A stretch of DNA of 35,384 bases from a virus: IMG/VR virus record IMGVR_UViG_3300033146_002827, positions 1 through 35,384 of that record. One strand, given 5' to 3'. Under the pieces are notes generated by a model that did no database searches, was not told the DNA's origin, and was given only the letters and a program-made list of their open reading frames with translations. Below, piece after piece: positions 2,894 through 29,255 of the stretch (positions are counted from its first letter, which is position 1; each line of letters begins with the position of its first letter). The translations under genes and the position numbers were made by a program.

Positions 2894-3271
2894 ATGGTAA
2901 ATGTAAAAAAATTCATTTTCGACAAATTAAACGCAGATACTATTTTGGATTGATTAGTGGGGGATAGAATTTACACTAAAATCGTCCCTATTGAAGCAGA
3001 ATCACCGTTGATAGTATTTAACAGGATAGCCCCCTGAAAGATTGATTTAAAAGGTATTAGAAACGAATATTTTCAGATAACTTGTTGGTGACAAAACACA
3101 AATGAAAATGAATCTATAATGTTCCAAATAGTAACAATATTTAACGGATTAAAAGAACCACCCATAAAATTTTCAGATGTTCAACGATTAGACGAAACTT
3201 TTGATAAAGATAGTTTAAATTTTGGAAACCATGTTACAATTCACATAAAGATATTCGATTACAATTTATAA
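2894..3271 (+). CDS. Tail completion / tail terminator-like protein
   Basis: 125 aa; starts two bases after the gp10-like stop. It opens 'VKKFIFDKLNADTILDGLVGDRIYTKIVPIEAESPLIVFNRI', the form of DUF3168-like and lambda gpU-like tail terminators: a helix, a 'VGDRIY' turn, then 'P-x-P-LIVF'. The middle strands (NEYFQITCWGQN, IMFQIVTIFNGL) also fit. It would cap the finished tail tube. Called on these motifs plus its place directly before the major tail protein. Confidence 0.68.
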
Positions 3272-8669: not shown

Positions 8670-9731
8670 ATGATGAATTATATAGCTTATTTTTACGACA
8701 TTAACAACAATGTAGTCGCTCAAGTCGAAGACATCCTAGACTTACAGGTAGAATCTATTTTGAACGATGTAAGCTCGGCTTCTTTTGCTTTATTTAATAC
8801 AAATCCGTATTGTAAAAGAGAATTTATCAAATCGTATAGAAGAGTCAAAATAAATCTATCGTCAGATAATAGTGAGGATACTTTATTTGACGGAGTTATC
8901 AGATGATTTCCGAGCGATTTAACAAAAACGACAATACAATTAAAAAGTTTTGAACATCTCTTAAAGCGTAGAAAAATACATCAAGATTACAATTATACCA
9001 ATACTTCTATCAATACTGTTTTAAGCGATATTTTATTAGAAATAAATACAAGATATGAGACGAATATTACCTTAGATTGTTGAATTACGGATCTAGTATC
9101 TCCGGGCTATAAGGATTGACAAGATTTTTTATCAATAATTAAAGACTTAGCAGGTAATTGATATGAATTTATTGTAGATGATTTAGTTTTAAAATTTAAA
9201 ACTACTGTTTGAGTCGATAGATCGTCTGGTGCTGACTTCGTAGAATATAGGTTAGATTCTACTGAACCGAGCGACAGAACTATTGATACAGCCTCTTTCA
9301 ATGAAGATGGAGAATTATTAGTAAATTGAGTTATTGCTAAATCTGGCTCTAACTATAACGACCAAGACGACCTCGCAAGTATTGCGGAATATTGACTAGT
9401 AGAGGATACTATATTCGTGTATGGGGATGTTATAAAGTCCGCAGAATCATATATAGCCGACCATAAAAACGGAGTACAGGAATTTGAAATTTCAGCAACT
9501 ACAAGTAACTTTTTTGAGGCATTTTTGGGCGATTTCGTAAAAGTTTATATTTTCGTCGGAAATGATATAATGTTTTTTGACGGTCCGATGAAAATAACAA
9601 AGAAAAGATATACAGCAGGCGACCTCCCTTTAATAGAATTTTCCGTTGGAATAACAAAAATAAAAACTTTAGATCCTCTTGAAAAAATAAAAGAGTTGGG
9701 TGAAAGGATAAATAAATTAGAGGTCCAGTAA
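8670..9731 (+). CDS. Tail hub / baseplate protein (gp37-like)
   Basis: 353 aa. 'MNYIAYFYDINNNVVAQVEDILDLQVESILNDVSSASFALFNTNPYCKREFIKSYRRVKI' matches the start of siphovirus ReqiPepy6 Gp37-like and related tail hub (Tal-type) proteins: a 'W/F-D-x-N' strand, then 'S.SF.l....p........v.v'. The mid-part has 'FEHLLKRRKI' and 'DFLSIIKDLAGNGYEFIVDD', matching the family's domain exchange region. Two ATGs (8670, 8673) are possible. An early standard-code stop at 8904 is UGA (Gly). Confidence 0.68.
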
Positions 9732-12153: not shown

Positions 12154-12227
12154 TTTGTGTTATAATTATTTCGGATCAAGTTTTTTTTCTTGCTAAAAAC
12201 CACCTACTATCTCAAGGGGTGGTTTTT
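12139..12227 (+). ncRNA. Predicted short RNA 1 with own promoter and terminator
   Basis: Inside the end of the amidase gene, TTGAAA (12139-12144), 16 bases, TATAAT (12161-12166) form a promoter. Transcription from ~12173 would give a roughly 55-base RNA with a CAAG/CTTG hairpin around a T8 loop (12178-12193) and an intrinsic terminator AAAAACCACC (12195-12204) / GGTGGTTTTT (12218-12227). No ORF fits. The terminator also ends the late operon, so the promoter might be fortuitous in this AT-rich DNA. Confidence 0.5.
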
Positions 12228-12255
12228 GGTTTATGGTGGACAGTTTAGAAAAGTT

Positions 12256-12366
12256 TTGATTTTTAAGGTTTTTATGATAAAATGTGTATACCAATATTCA
12301 CCTAGAGGAGAAATTCTGACGGGTGAATTTCTTTTTAAACCGTTATTTAAGACGGTTTTTTTATAT
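12256..12366 (+). ncRNA. Predicted short RNA 2 with own promoter and terminator
   Basis: TTGATT (12256-12261), 16 bases, TAAAAT (12278-12283) form a promoter with a start near 12290. The RNA would fold ATTCACC (12296-12302) with GGTGAAT (12322-12328), showing an AGAGGAG string in the loop, then end at a hairpin AAACCGT / ACGGTTT (12337-12358) with a T8 run. The product is about 75 bases. An AGGAG-bearing loop is unusual here since genes in this phage rarely use such a sequence. The RNA is a prediction only. Confidence 0.5.
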
Positions 12367-12392
12367 TTTGTTTAAAAAAGTTTAAAAAAGTT

Positions 12393-12421
12393 TTGCTTTT
12401 TGTTTAAAATTTTTCTATAAT
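12393..12421 (+). promoter_or_regulatory. Early promoter for the recombination genes
   Basis: TTGCTT (12393-12398), 17 bases, TATAAT (12416-12421). Upstream, GTTTAAAAAAGTTTAAAAAA (12370-12389) looks like an UP element and recurs before the promoters at 18605, 19661 and, in weaker form, 22939. It directs transcription into the Bet/RecT gene. Confidence 0.78.
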
Positions 12422-12440
12422 ATACCTAGTTTTTAAATAA

Positions 12441-12474
12441 TTCACATCAGCTATCAGCTCTAAGGATTTGTGAA
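12441..12474 (+). promoter_or_regulatory. Structured leader element before the Bet gene
   Basis: TTCACA (12441-12446) pairs with TGTGAA (12469-12474), enclosing the doubled TCAGCT-A-TCAGCT (12447-12459), where AGCT can pair with AGCT in a small inner hairpin. The element lies in the ~100-base 5' leader between the early promoter and the ATG at 12528. The leader then becomes U-rich (12495-12527) up to the start. A protein- or RNA-binding leader is a reasonable guess; no known riboswitch is recognised. Confidence 0.4.
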
Positions 12475-12527
12475 CTTATTAAAAAAACAACCAGTATTAT
12501 TTATTATTTTATTTATTTATTCAATTT

Positions 12528-13310: not shown

Positions 13311-15365
13311 ATGGATTTTCATATAAAGAATGTAAGTTTTTCACAAGTTGGACAACTTATGAGAGATCCGTGACAGTGGGGATCTAATTACCTGTTAGGG
13401 CAGTGGGACAATACCACCTCAGTAGCACAGGCTACCTGAATTATCTGTCATAAATTTGTCGAACATTTAATTAGAACGAAAGGCGATGAAACCACTGCCC
13501 TCAAAAAAGCTTATGAATGTATTTACAGTACAGAGACAGAAACTTATTTGATAGATCCTTCTAATTTTAAAAAACCGATTGCAGATTGTACGCTAGACGA
13601 AATAAAAGACACATTCGGCACAAAAATATTGAACCTAGGGAAAGGCTCAATTAAAGATTTATTAAATAAAGTAAAAAGTGGGATTGATGGATATTTATGA
13701 GAAAAGGTTTATTATTGAGATATTTTAGGGGTCGAAAAAAAAATGATGTATGAGATTAGTGAAACAATTTTGGATAAAAAATTTGTTTTCCCGATCCCAG
13801 TAAAAGCCGTAGCAGATCTAGTGTGTAGAACGAAAGAACCGACACAATTAATAAACGCAAATAAAGAAGTAATAACAATACCAGCTGAATCAATCTACAT
13901 AGAAGACAATAAATTTAGTTCTAAATTTCAAGAGTTGAGTTTAGATAGTGCAAAGTTCTTTTTTCAATCGATGTTTTTATATTACACGACCAAAAGAGAA
14001 TATTGAGAGGCTCCGACTCATATAAATTTCAGAGTAACTAAATTGTCGAAAAATAGAGACGGTAGTTCACAGCAACAAGTTGTAACATACTTTTATTCAT
14101 GAGAAGATTTTGAGGTAGCTAAAACTGATTTTTGGCGTTATATGATCCGTTGGTTTGAATTAGTAAAGTTCTATCAAGATGGAGATTTAATTTTTAATGT
14201 TTTTGACTTTATAAATGGAGACGAAGCTTGGCAAAAACAAAAAGCGTATTATAGGGATATCGCAGTAGATCAATTACAGCAGAATATTTCAATTAGTAAC
14301 AGGAGTAGCGAAAAATGAAATAATTTTAGTGGTCATAATTTCAATTTAATGGATAAAGGGAAAGAAATAAAATGAGAGGTAATGACTGGCGAGATAGAGG
14401 TTGAAGATATTATCAGAACTAAGTTATTAGAATTTGGTTTGCCGATTCAATATGAGAGAACGAACAAAGGCTATTCTTACAATCAGATACTTTTTACGCC
14501 CTGACGAGGTGTCGAAATGAGAAAGTTAGAAGCTAAATTAAAAGAATTACAGCAAGCTACAGGATTCGAGCAGATAAGAATTGAAGCCCCTGTGCCAGGC
14601 ACTAAGTATATTGGGATTGAATACCCTAGATCTAACAGACAATATTTATCATTTAATAAATACAAGAAAAAGAAAAGAGGACTTAAAATACCAATAGGGA
14701 ATAATTTAGCTAAAAAAACTATTGAAATAGATCTTGCTGATTCTAACTATCCGCATTTATTGGTAGCGTGAACTACTGGATCAGGAAAAAGTGAATGGTT
14801 GAAAGTAGCAATAGAGAGCTTAATGGGCAAGTGTGAATTGTGGCTAATAGATCCCAAAATGGTTGAGTTCGCACGATATGAGGAGCAAGCAGACCTATAT
14901 CTAACAAATGAAATAAATGTGCTAAAATCTCTTAATGCCTTATTTATAGAAATGAAAAATCGTTATAGAATAATGAAAATGGAAGGAGTCAAAGATATTG
15001 ACCAATACAATAAAAAAAGGAAAGGAAAAATGAAAAGAATTGTTGTAATTATAGACGAATTTGGCGATTTAAAATTAAGCGTAGTAGGAAAAGATATAGA
15101 AATGTTAATCGAGCAGATAACAGCATTATGAAGAGCGTCTTGAGTACACATAATAATCGCAACGCAAAGACCCGACGTAAAAATAATTAATGGTAGAATA
15201 AAAAACAACATTGCTACTAGAATCTGTTTTAAAGTCGGTAGCGAGATCGATTCGAAAGTAATGTTAGGCAAAATGTGAGCGGAACAATTATCGGGTAAAT
15301 GAGATCTAATTTTAAAAGATTGAACAAAGCAAGAAAGATTACAAAGTTTTTATATCGAGAACTAA
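13311..15365 (+). CDS. PD-(D/E)XK nuclease fused to an FtsK-like DNA motor
   Basis: 684 aa in one frame with no UAA/UAG. N-terminal residues ~1-240 are a RecB/Cas4-type nuclease: 'GIICHKFVEHL' (H47), 'AVADLVCRT' (D169), 'IEDNK' (E198-K201) and Q219 in 'FFFQSMFLYY' follow the H, D, D-x-K, Q-xxx-Y order. From ~365 the protein is FtsK-like: 'PVPGTKYIGIEYPRSNRQYLSF', Walker A G487-S494 (first G is UGA), 'LWLIDPKMVEFARY', Walker B 'VVIIDEFGD' (D582, E583), 'HIIIATQRPDVKIINGRIKNN', 'MLGKMGAEQLSGKGDLIL'. There are no membrane helices or γ domain. It probably couples DNA translocation to resection beside Bet. Confidence 0.87.
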
Positions 15366-15384
15366 TATTTAATAAAAGAATAGT

Positions 15385-15413
15385 TTGATTTTGTCGGTTT
15401 AATTTGTTAAAAT
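15385..15413 (+). promoter_or_regulatory. Promoter of the solitary crRNA-like repeat
   Basis: TTGATT (15385-15390), exactly 17 bases, TAAAAT (15408-15413). The predicted start (~15420) lies just 6 bases before the Cas12a-type handle at 15426, so the RNA would carry the handle almost at its 5' end. Confidence 0.68.
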
Positions 15414-15425
15414 GTAGCCGTTATA

Positions 15426-15445
15426 TAATTTCTACTTTTGTAGAT
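15426..15445 (+). ncRNA. Solitary Cas12a-type crRNA handle (possible RNA anti-CRISPR)
   Basis: The 20 bases read TAATTTCTAC-TTTT-GTAGAT. TCTAC (15431-15435) pairs with GTAGA (15440-15444) and the AATT/T flanks match the pseudoknot part of the Cas12a handle. From known handles (FnCas12a loop TGTT, AsCas12a loop TCTT) this differs at one loop base only. No second copy exists in the window, no cas gene is near, and the usual 36-base repeat is not complete upstream. It has its own promoter. Bases after it (15446-15470) would be a spacer. It could mimic crRNA and trap host Cas12a, as solitary repeat units of other phages do, or act as a one-spacer guide. Confidence 0.7.
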
Positions 15446-15472
15446 AATAATCTATAAAACAAACATATTGCC

Positions 15473-15558
15473 CCCCATCACTTCGCCGTTGGTATTCTTA
15501 GTAATAAGATGTAAACCCAAACAAAAGAGGCAAATAAAAACTGTAGGTCGTGATGGGG
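15473..15558 (+). ncRNA. Structured RNA element, copy 1
   Basis: Closing stem CCCCATCAC (15473-15481) / GTGATGGGG (15550-15558). Inside are GCC/GGC (15485-15487 / 15529-15531), GGT/ACC, and a hairpin TCTTA-GTAA-TAAGA (15496-15509) with a GNRA tetraloop. A T-rich tract (15565-15570) follows the stem, so it may act as a regulated terminator ahead of the small gene at 15591. The inner 59 bases match copy 2 (15934-15992) with one difference, while the closing stem differs at two paired positions that remain paired. It matches no RNA family I recognise. Confidence 0.65.
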
Positions 15559-15590
15559 TTAAAGTTTTTTATTTATTTATTTATTGTTTT

Positions 15591-15893
15591 ATGGAAAAAT
15601 TCAATATAAAAGCAAATTGAGCAATTTATGTGGATAAAGAAGAAAATATAGGAAGAGTAAAGGATATTATTAAAATAATGGACAAAGATGAGTTTGAAAA
15701 TTATCTACCTAGTGATTTGATTAAACCAATGTCAGATTTTTGAAAATTGGGATATACTGGTAAATTTACTGATATTGATTTAGGAATATTACAAAAACTT
15801 TGTTTTAACGAATGAATTTTCATATTTTGTTTAGAAACTGAGTGGTTTGATAGCGGCAAATATTCTATTGATTATTATAAAGATAAAGAATAG
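15591..15893 (+). CDS. Unknown small acidic protein between the RNA copies
   Basis: 100 aa, 'MEKFNIKANGAIYVDKEENI', rich in D/E (calculated acidic by eye), no signal peptide, membrane span or known domain. Hydrophobic β-like segments (GIFIFCLETEWF) suggest a small folded domain. It follows structured RNA copy 1 by 32 bases and the Cas12a-type handle by 145 bases, and is followed by RNA copy 2. This place, and the size, are those of many anti-CRISPR proteins, but nothing in the sequence proves that role. The U-rich leader (TTTATTTATTTATT) replaces a Shine-Dalgarno. Confidence 0.75.
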
Positions 15894-15924
15894 ATTTGAT
15901 ATCCAGTTTCTAAAAATATTGAAC

Positions 15925-16012
15925 CCCTTTCACTTCGCCTTTGGTATTCTTAGTAATAAGATGTAAACCCAAACAAAAGAGGCAAATAAAAAACAGATAG
16001 AAGGTGAAAGGG
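15925..16012 (+). ncRNA. Structured RNA element, copy 2
   Basis: Closing stem CCCTTTCAC (15925-15933) / GTGAAAGGG (16004-16012), with the same interior as copy 1 including the TCTTA-GTAA-TAAGA hairpin (15948-15961). Relative to copy 1, the 4th and 5th stem pairs change C-G to T-A and A-T to T-A on both sides, which keeps pairing. The 3' part overlaps a 29-bp perfect inverted repeat (15972-16041) that is absent from copy 1. It precedes the small gene at 16060 by 47 bases. Confidence 0.65.
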
Positions 16013-16041
16013 CTATCTGTTTTTTATTTGCCTCTTTTGTT
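15972..16041. repeat. 29-bp perfect inverted repeat with 12-base loop
   Basis: Left arm 15972-16000 (AACAAAAGAGGCAAAT... to CAGATAG) is the exact reverse complement of 16013-16041 (CTATCTG... to TTTTGTT). The loop AAGGTGAAAGGG carries the 3' half of the closing stem of RNA copy 2, so loop and upstream strand would form a pseudoknot, or else the two folds exclude each other. Long perfect palindromes often come from template switching or mark processing, termination or replication sites. Confidence 0.85.
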
Positions 16042-16059: not shown

Positions 16060-16296
16060 ATGATTGAAATATGAAATGAAATTTTAAGTAAAAAATTTAT
16101 TATTTATAAATTAATAAAAAATTGAGAAATATTAAGGGAAAAGTTGTCTAGTGATAGTTATAAAGTGACAAATAAATTAAAGGTAAATATAAAAAAGAAT
16201 TGTAGAATATTGTATAATTGAACATCAATTTATGTTAAAATTAGTGATTTAGAAAAATTTATTTTAATAAAATATAATATTTCAATTATTATTTAA
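16060..16296 (+). CDS. Unknown small protein after RNA copy 2
   Basis: 78 aa, 'MIEIGNEILSKKFIIYKLIK', basic, I/K/N-rich, with three UGA glycines. No domain is recognised. 'NCRILYNGTSIYVKISDLEKFI' suggests a small β/α fold. It shares the leader arrangement (structured RNA then ATG) with the gene at 15591, which hints at common control. AT content is high even for this genome, so certainty about its being expressed is moderate. Confidence 0.6.
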
Positions 16297-17282: not shown

Positions 17283-18032
17283 ATGAAACCAGTTTTAATA
17301 AATGACCATTTCCAGAATTTCAAACATTATAATATAAAAAAAGCTCAATTAATAATTGCTGATATCCCTTATAATGTTTGAATAAATGCTTTTGCGAGCA
17401 ATCCAGCGTGGTATAAAGACGGAGACAATAAAAACGGAGAAAGCAAACTGGCAGGAAAACAATTTTTTGATACAGACAAAGATTTTAAGATTAGTGAATT
17501 TTTACATTTTAGCAATAGAATGCTAAAAAAAGAACCAAAAGAAAAAGGGAAAGCTCCTTGTATGATTGTGTTTTGTGCTTTTGATCAACAATTTGAATTA
17601 ATAACAAAAGCGAAAGAGTACGGATTAAATCATTATATCAATTTAGTTTTTCGTAAAAACTTCTCCGCTCAGGTCCTAAAAGCTAATATGCGAGTGGTTG
17701 GGAATTGTGAATATGCAGTTTTGCTTTATCGTGATAAATTACCAAAGTTTAATAATGATTGAAGGATGATTTTTAATTGTTTTGATTGGATTAGAGACAA
17801 CCAAACAGAAAAAATACATCCAACACAAAAGCCAATAAAAGTAATTGAACACTTAATAGAATTATTTACAGATAAATGAGATGTTGTTATAGATCCTTGT
17901 TGTTGAAGTTGAATCACACTCAAAGGGGCGTGCAATTTGGAACGATTATCTTATTGATTTGAGATAAAAAAAGAGTTTGTTAAATTAGCCAACGAAAAGA
18001 TTTTAAATAGCTTCCAAAATAAACTATTTTAA
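17283..18032 (+). CDS. DNA amino-methyltransferase (N6-adenine or N4-cytosine)
   Basis: 249 aa, β-class order: motif IV 'DIPYN' at D27-Y30 first, then 'HPTQKPIKVIEHLI', then motif I 'DPCCGSGITLKGACNL' near residue 204, where both glycines are UGA. It uses S-adenosylmethionine to methylate an exocyclic amino group of a base. Motif IV has DIPY instead of DPPY, a tolerated change. No restriction enzyme is next to it, so it is an orphan enzyme that may protect phage DNA from host restriction or mark replication. Target site is unknown. Confidence 0.9.
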
Positions 18033-23006: not shown

Positions 23007-23573
23007 ATGGAAAAACAAAAAATAAAGTATAGATCATTATGAGAATTAAAAAAACTACCTAATAATCCGAGAAAAATAGACAAAGAAGATTTTAAAAAAT
23101 TAGTATCTTCTATTAAAAAATTTGGGGTTTTGGATGGAAGACCTTTTTTATTATCAAATAGAACCGGAGAATTAGTTATTATTGGTGGAAACCAAAGATA
23201 TGAGGCTTGCAAAAAGTTGGGGATTAAAGAAGTTCCGACTTTTTTGTTTGAGAAGTTATCAGAAGAGGAAGAAAAAGAAATAATTATTAGGGATAATGTT
23301 AGTAATTGAGAATGGGATTATGATATTTTAGAGGACGAGTGGGATAGTGATGATTTGATGGATTGGGGGCTTGATGTTGATTTTTGAGAAGACTTTACAG
23401 ATAAAAACAAAGAAATAGATGTTGATTGATTTGAAGATGAGTGTATTTTAAAACTAAAATATAATTTTGAAGAATATAATGAGATTTTAGCAATATTACA
23501 AAACCTAAAAAATAAATATTGAGTTGAAACAAACGAAGATTTATTTTTTAAACTTTTAAAAGAAAATGTTTAA
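23007..23573 (+). CDS. ParB-like nuclease domain protein
   Basis: 188 aa. 'LKKLPNNPRKIDKEDFKKLVSSIKKFGVLDGRPFLLSNRTGELVIIGGNQRYEACKKLGIKEVPTFLFEKLSEEEEKEIIIRDNVSNGEWDYDIL' is the phage ParB/Spo0J N-terminal domain: NPR, S-I-x-x-F-G, GG-x-Q-R-x-x-A-x-x-x-L-G and VP. The 3' part is acidic. Such domains bind CTP and DNA in ParB; phage forms often sit next to DNA methyltransferases. Its stop overlaps the next start by 8 bases. Confidence 0.88.
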
Positions 23574-24603
23574 TTATAAATGGAATTTAAAAGACTGATA
23601 CCCAGCAAAAGGAATAAATAAAAATTGATTAAATGTTTTTAGTACTTTCTGTTGTTGAGGTGGTTCGAGTATGTGATATAAACTAGCAGGTTATAATATT
23701 ATTGGAGCAAACGATATTGATAAACAAATGGCTGAAGTATATAAAAAAAATCATAATCCTAAATATTTCTTTCTTTGTCCTATTTGAGAGTTATTAGAAA
23801 AAGAATTACCAGAAGAATTATATAATTTAGATATATTAGATGGAAGTCCACCGTGTTCAACTTTTAGTATGTCCGGTAGTAGAGAAAAGGTTTGGAAAAA
23901 AGAAAAAAGGTTTAAAGAATGACAAGCAAAACAGGTTTTATCAGATTTGTTTTTTGATTGGATAAAATTAGTTGATAAATTAAAACCAAAGATTGCAATA
24001 GCTGAAAATGTAAAATGAATGTTGGCGTGAAATGCTAAAATGTATACTCAAAAAGTAGTTAGAGAATTAAACAGGATTTGATATGATGTGCAATTGTTTT
24101 TATTAAATGGAGCGTCAATGTGATTACCACAAAAAAGAGAAAGAGTTTTTTTTGTTTGTAAGAGAAAAGATTTAAACTTTCCAAAGTTGGAGTTAGAGTT
24201 TAATGAGAAGCCTATTTTGTTTAGAGATATAAATGAATGAGTTATAAAAATATTTAAAGATATTGGGAGAGCATCTCATAAATATTATGATTTATGTAAA
24301 CCAGGTAGTAACATAGCGACAGTACATCCTACAAAAAGCTTTTTTTCAAGGATGAAATTAGCTAATGAAAAAGTAGCAAATACATTAACTGCTAAGTGCA
24401 ATATTGATATTTATAATCCAGACCAAAGAAGAGTACTTACCCAAAATGAATTATTATTATTAGGGTCGTTTCCACTAGACTATAATTTTCTTAAAATTCA
24501 ACCAGGATATTTAATTTGAATGTCGGTTCCACCAGTGATGATGGCGCAACTATCTTATCAGATTTATTTACAGTTATTTTCAAAAAATAAATTTACAAAG
24601 TAA
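23566..24603 (+). CDS. DNA cytosine-5 methyltransferase
   Basis: 345 aa, all main motifs present: motif I 'FSTFCCGGGSSMGYKLAGYNIIGANDID' (residues ~25-51, with UGA at the first glycine), motif IV 'GSPPCSTFS' (catalytic C97), motif VI 'AENVKGML' (E147-N148-V149), motif VIII 'LPQKRERVFFV', motif X-like 'VPPVMMAQLSYQIYLQLF'. The target recognition region lies ~205-290. It methylates C at C5. Overlaps the ParB-like gene by 8 bases (ATG inside the last codons). No partner restriction gene, so likely DNA modification against host restriction. Confidence 0.94.
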
Positions 24604-28468: not shown

Positions 28469-29255
28469 GAAAAGAATTGAAAAGGTAGAAAAAAAGCTTT
28501 TTGATTTGGGGGGGGGTGATCTCATAGAATTACAAGAAAAATACATAAAAATTATTCAGAAAATTTTCGAGAAAAGATATAACGAGGTTTTGGATTATTT
28601 AGAAAAAGACCCGGAAGTTAAATTAAATGATTCACTTATCGATCAATCTCAATTTGTGGAAAAAATAACAAAACTTTTTGAGATAGATCTTGATGAGGAA
28701 GATATCACAGAAATGATTACAATGTTTGCTAAGTGATATTGAATTTGAATAATACAAATGTCAAAAATAATGAGTGCAGAGGTAACGACAGAGGCTCTTT
28801 TTGGATTAGATCCAGCGGAGTCGTTGGTTTATGCAGAAGAACACGCCTGAGAACTAATTACTAGAATAGATGAGTATTCAAGAAAAAGAATCAATAATCT
28901 AATATCTAACGGAGTAGAAAAGTGATGGGGATACAATAAACTCGCTAAGGAGTTAAGAGGTGATTATGCGTTTTCTGCTTATCGTTCAAGATTGATAGCT
29001 AGCAATGAAATAGGGACGGCATACATCGAGGGGAAAGACGCACAATTTAAGGAATACAAAAAAGAATTTGGTCAAACAGGGTGGAAAAATTGGATCTCGC
29101 ACCGTGATGATGTTACAACTGCGAATTGTCTAGCTAATGACAATCAGGGTTGGATAGAACACGACCAACTATTTCAGAGTTGAGACGAAAAGCCACCTAG
29201 GTTTCCCTGATGTCGTTGTAATATAACTTACAGACTTTTTAATCCTAATGAATAA
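28446..29255 (+). CDS. MuF-like minor head (morphogenesis) protein
   Basis: 269 aa. Helical N-terminal half, then 'RRLIASNEIGTAYIEGKDAQFKEYKKEFGQTGWKNWISHRDDVTTANCLANDNQGWIEHDQLFQSGDEKPPRFPGCRCNITYRLF', where H-x-D-D-x-x-T-x-x-x-C and the P-x-P-G-C-R-C end are the SPP1 gp7/Mu F hallmarks. Start overlaps the portal end by 23 bases. In frame it crosses UGA at 28734 and 28740 as Gly. It binds the portal and travels with the DNA. Confidence 0.88.

Follow-up and report, generated by a model that had tools for sequence, protein, structure and literature searches.

A solitary Cas12a handle-like sequence in a phage using genetic code 25: a candidate RNA anti-CRISPR

What is a single Cas12a crRNA handle doing in the genome of a phage that carries no recognisable cas gene? 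The question is raised by a virus record of 35,384 bases (the whole stretch analysed here, called the window), in which the 20-mer TAATTTCTACTTTTGTAGAT, resembling the 5′ handle of Cas12a, is found in a single copy at 15426-15445 of the plus strand. The first-pass annotation had described this sequence as one loop base away from the published handles and present once, and a check of the sequence agreed on both points.

The handle and its place in the phage genome

The 20-mer is made of the stem TCTAC/GTAGA and the loop TTTT. The corresponding loops are TCTT in the As handle and TGTT in the Fn handle, and the window loop is one base off each of them. When the window was searched at up to three mismatches, the only other matches were the reverse overlap of the site with itself and one random site at 28900, and no second repeat, intact or degenerate, was found within 100 bp of the handle or elsewhere in the record. 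The dinucleotide model predicted 1.3e-6 exact copies per window, or 5.4e-5 copies with any loop. With an expectation of about 1e-6 copies per window, a chance origin of the handle is very unlikely.

The handle is located in the intergenic gap 15366-15590 (225 nt), the second largest in the window, between the FtsK-like gene at 13311-15365, which ends at 15365, and the next ORF, which starts at 15591. Noncoding DNA makes up about 6% of the contig. No match to this intergenic region was found in the phage collection. The widest gap, 12154-12527 (374 nt), lies between the amidase and RecT genes. The features of the handle region are as follows:

15385..15413, plus strand: candidate promoter TTGATT-17-TAAAAT, TG-extended, from a consensus scan only; putative start near 15420
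15426..15445, plus strand: solitary Cas12a 5′ handle mimic; exact V-A repeat-core match, intergenic, chance expectation 1.3e-6
15446..15469, plus strand: would-be guide position, directly 3′ of the handle
15472..15558, plus strand: structured-RNA-like element, copy 1, directly 3′ of the handle; closing stem 15472-15481 / 15550-15558
15591..15893, plus strand: orphan ORF, 100 aa in code 25 (translation), the first gene 3′ of the handle
15924..16012, plus strand: structured-RNA-like element, copy 2, with no handle upstream

The phage clearly uses code 25, as had been supposed from the start: with TGA as a stop (code 11), 15% of the contig lies in open frames of 150 codons or more, against 75% with TGA open, and TGA is read as glycine. 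The record encodes a terminase, a portal, a virion structural protein, RecT, the FtsK-like ATPase, an amidase and two DNA methyltransferases. The latter, at 17283-18032 and 23566-24603, are of the N6/N4 and C5-cytosine types and possibly protect against restriction. The reported absence of cas genes was borne out. A model search of the record for Cas12a came back empty; its controls were all silent, yet the same model detects Cas12a in a Gracilibacteria genome. Family scans revealed no cas families among the scanned ORFs either.

The promoter proposed at first pass does exist as a TG-extended site scoring 9/12, but 20 promoter-like sites were counted in the surrounding 1.6 kb against 11.4 ± 3.3 in shuffles; it counts as weak evidence because it does not stand above the local background of such sites. 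Recurrence of the handle at the same place in related phages, the lack of which the first-pass annotation had named as a refutation, was not observed. The FtsK and portal proteins identified no relatives in IMG/VR, and the terminase identified three (44-50% identity over the best terminase segment), two of them short fragments; none of the three carries a matching handle unit. Since these relatives are few and distant, the absence weighs little.

The same core in bacterial arrays and in other viruses

A search for the same repeat in Gracilibacteria V-A arrays, also suggested at first pass, was successful. V-A-type repeats in Gracilibacteria RU_4_5 (10 copies) and in Roizmanbacteria (27) have exactly this 20-mer as their core, and it is an array core in a Bacteroidaceae bacterium (at least 33 copies), in Campylobacteraceae and in others. 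In RU_4_5 the contig with the array also encodes Cas12a, its coding sequence divided between two frames. The 3′ 20-nt core of this Patescibacteria V-A repeat (GTCTAAAATGATTATTTAATTTCTACTTTTGTAGAT) is identical to the window handle; in contrast to the RU_4_5 array, the window has one copy, an unrelated upstream 16 nt and no spacer-repeat periodicity. The 16 nt 5′ of the handle agree with V-A repeats at 6/16 positions, a value reached by 80% of shuffles, and the upstream parts of the repeat vary from genome to genome among these arrays. A REC1 (Cas12a) match was obtained in 12 of the 380 genomes of the RU_4_5 phylum (Patescibacteria); five of these 12 contain the stem, with the TTTT loop in all five.

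As for the host, the literature supports the suggestion that candidate hosts have type V immunity. In Gracilibacteria and Absconditabacteria the systems in use are almost exclusively of type V (PMC10746230), and Vampirococcus, a relative of Absconditabacteria, has Cpf1 with 34 spacers (PMC8080830). No TGA recoding was detected among the Cas12a genomes examined. RU_4_5 itself is no proof for a code-25 host, because its array locus does not look TGA-recoded: ORFs resembling cas4, cas1 and cas2 (named by position and look) have no in-frame TGA. A TGA-recoded host was also sought in the whole-genome set through read-through stops in RpoB, and no TGA was seen inside RpoB in the genomes listed, 30 chosen ones (28 of them low-scoring) included. 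Code-25 genomes thus seem to be missing from that phylum sample, and for host Cas12a we turn to the literature.

Because the handle may come from many windows looked at, a census of IMG/VR was used in place of the window expectation. The scan with the pattern TAATTTCTACNNNNGTAGAT yielded at least 65 clusters. Among the matches listed, clusters with the loops TATT, TGTT, TTTT and TATG were intergenic in 21 cases and within ORFs in two, whereas for all other loops the counts were 16 and 26; the contrast is descriptive, since the four loops were picked after the table was seen. The TTTT loop accounted for three clusters, none in ORFs, among the matches listed. TGTT and TTTT occur in Cas12a repeats that are known or were observed here, and TATT is likewise the loop of a Cas12a repeat. 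Intergenic viral handles whose loop is of the Cas12a type are thus for the most part genuine solitary units, a class that the window handle fits.

Other V-A-like solitary units are indeed present in IMG/VR contigs. Those of contigs L018 and L019/L020 share with the window handle the 20-nt core and an intergenic position. In L018 the 20-mer (9357-9376) lies between the terminase and portal genes and, as in the window, is handle-only and follows a promoter-like box: a TATAAT box is followed after about 17 nt by the handle and then by a terminator-like hairpin, GAGCCAAAGAT...ATCTTTGGCTCTTTTTT. This hairpin is directly 3′ of the handle, whereas no terminator-like site was called near the window handle. 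In L019 the 20-mer (3107-3126) is part of a full 36-nt repeat-like unit. Unlike the window phage, L018 and L019 are not clearly TGA-recoded. Two further contigs (L066:4613-4674 and L082:1350-1822) contain two or three Cas12a-type handles with the loops TATT and TTCA; these loci may be mini-arrays or repeated decoys.

A probable decoy RNA and its alternatives

Could an AT-rich intergenic palindrome, such as an operator or the hairpin at 15436-15459, simply read as a handle? The handle overlaps a 10-bp hairpin that exists in its own right as one of about 20 in the window, and the wider repeat is not conserved; both observations agree with a chance match. Against it stand the expectation of 1.3e-6 exact copies per window, a loop identical to that of all five Patescibacteria V-A repeats found, and the intergenic site, Cas12a-type loops being enriched between genes among the matches listed; we consider such a coincidence unlikely. 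The first-pass annotation had instead offered as the alternative a one-spacer guide against host or rival DNA. In such a case a phage mini-crRNA with a spacer from 15446 would redirect host Cas12a to a rival phage, a plasmid or a host gene, or would silence a promoter through partial pairing in the manner of CreR RNAs. Mini-arrays are known from phages, and a sequence of spacer length does lie directly 3′ of the handle. However, this proposal found no support, as no target could be identified in the sequences searched. Neither the window nor the fetched Patescibacteria cas12a neighbourhoods contained a PAM together with an 8-nt seed match. The exact 20-nt viral matches, among those listed, represent one site common to three contigs, at which the match stops at 20 nt and the flank (aggaaaaaga) has no TTTV motif. 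Overall, no protospacer beside TTTV was found in the window, the fetched loci or IMG/VR (among the matches listed). The best similarity to an array spacer, 15/20, was matched or exceeded in 3% of shuffles. The would-be spacer tends to pair back onto the handle, and there is no second repeat. On the collections and loci searched, a guide function is quite improbable. The 15/20 likeness of the flank, which is to a Roizmanbacteria array spacer, was rejected as chance because 3% of shuffles reach it and that spacer is AT-rich and palindromic.

Less probable still is a relic of a phage-borne V-A array, or a repeat used for recombination or integration into host arrays, although array integration was earlier suggested for solitary units in work cited in PMC10651486. 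Neither a Cas12a gene nor a degenerate second repeat was found in the record, and the locus holds the mature handle without the 36-nt repeat, whereas a relic would be expected to retain upstream repeat sequence; an array relic is unlikely because there is none upstream of the handle.

We favour a decoy: the handle is probably a type V-A solitary repeat unit acting as a Racr-like RNA anti-CRISPR. This reading is based on the sequence, its solitude and intergenic place, its identity to the V-A core, including the TTTT form of Patescibacteria, and the intergenic enrichment of such handles in viruses. What speaks against it is the chance-level likeness of the upstream 16 nt to V-A repeats, a promoter site that does not exceed background, a flank able to disrupt the handle stem in a short RNA, the lack of a matching unit in the three nearest relatives, and the lack of TGA recoding in the Cas12a genomes examined. 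The 20-nt Cas12a handle would be transcribed by the phage as part of a short RNA, or within the 5′ leader of the gene downstream, and host Cas12a would bind this decoy as it would a crRNA. The bound enzyme would be loaded with a non-useful guide sequence, and fewer Cas12a molecules would be left with real crRNAs against the phage. Cas12a itself recognises and trims the handle, and the mature crRNA keeps only about 20 nt of the repeat, so a 20-nt unit whose transcript begins slightly 5′ of it can pass for the mature form.

The first-pass view that a Cas12a form of such a decoy would be a new case is not supported: in PAO1, Moraxella Cas12a is inhibited by RacrVA1-RacrVA3 (Camara-Wilpert et al. 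2023, PMC10651486), and there are the other V-A-like units in IMG/VR described above. Like RacrVA1-3, the window unit is solitary, V-A repeat-like and intergenic, is located on a mobile element without cas genes and is predicted to bind Cas12a. It differs from them in matching only the 20-nt mature handle and not the full repeat, in belonging to a code-25 phage and in having a fold-back hairpin and a structured element on its 3′ side. The mechanism is already known for V-A Racrs; what is new, relative to the published work consulted, is the code-25 phage and the handle-only form. The main text of PMC10651486 makes no mention of Patescibacteria, Gracilibacteria or Absconditabacteria.

The SRUFinder rule asks for at least 90% of the repeat to be covered at 90% identity (PMC10651486), which is a search cut-off and not a functional requirement. 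In the window unit only the 3′ 20 of 36 nt match, with 20/20 agreement to the V-A handle core, and by this rule it counts as a partial match. The RNA anti-CRISPR proposed at first pass is the best explanation of this solitary intergenic V-A unit. Solitary repeat units are often downstream of a promoter (PMC10651486). Here a promoter-like site is present 5′ of the handle and does not stand out from background. Regarding a matching subtype in the host, reliance on V-A is known from the literature on code-25 lineages, and the Cas12a genomes examined did not look recoded. If the decoy reading is true, Cas12a RNA decoys extend to phages of ultra-small TGA-recoded bacteria, in which type V-A is the chief form of adaptive immunity, and a 20-nt mature handle may suffice without the rest of the repeat. 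As handle-only units fail the full-match rule of the published finder, V-A RNA anti-CRISPRs would then exceed current counts.

Structures and orphan ORFs on the 3′ side

The handle and the sequence following it fold in two ways in prediction. When only the handle and the next 24 nt are folded, ATCTATAAAA (15450-15459) takes up the 3′ arm of the handle, giving the 10-bp fold-back hairpin at 15436-15459; the predicted probability of the handle stem drops to 2.5%, below that of 99.6% of random AT-rich flanks, and a few real array spacers disrupt the predicted handle stem likewise. In a 176-nt RNA (15420-15595) the predicted handle-stem probability is near 1.0, and 15451-15462 is predicted to pair with 15584-15595, thereby covering the start codon of the orphan ORF at 15591-15893. 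This longer RNA folds only moderately better than shuffles (z -2.2), and hairpins of the size of 15436-15459 number about 20 in the window. The alternative folds could represent a switch, or they could have arisen by accident in AT-rich DNA.

The two structured-RNA-like elements share a 69-nt core with 96% identity, and each lies upstream of a small orphan ORF. Their closing stems, read from the sequence, differ by two compensated pairs (CCCCATCAC/GTGATGGGG versus CCCTTTCAC/GTGAAAGGG). Rfam gave nothing at gathering scores for the twin elements, and the exact core was not found in other IMG/VR contigs. The pair may represent a riboswitch-like element or small RNA of a new kind, and as such a more novel feature than the handle; their structure is a proposal, since there are two copies only.

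The ORF at 15591-15893 has no Pfam, PHROGs, PADLOC, PDB or phage homologue (one of the searches used a 99-aa version starting one codon later), and the ORF at 16060-16296 (78 aa) has no Pfam, PHROGs or PADLOC match. By position only, it is possible, if speculative, that both encode anti-CRISPR proteins. One can further imagine a composite anti-Cas12a locus of code-25 phages, in which the display of a handle-only decoy would be switched by the fold-back hairpin and the structured element, and the orphan ORFs, carried on one transcript with it, would supply protein anti-CRISPRs, comparable to the RacrIC1-AcrIC5 bicistron; taken as a whole, such a locus is improbable.

A perfect 29-bp inverted repeat with a 12-nt loop occupies 15972-16041 and includes the 3′ side of the stem that closes copy 2. 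The weak Rfam matches on this palindrome, mostly to eukaryotic miRNA-type hairpins, were discarded as meaningless. One of its arms is A-rich and the other U-rich, and in this it looks like a terminator that would compete with the copy 2 fold.
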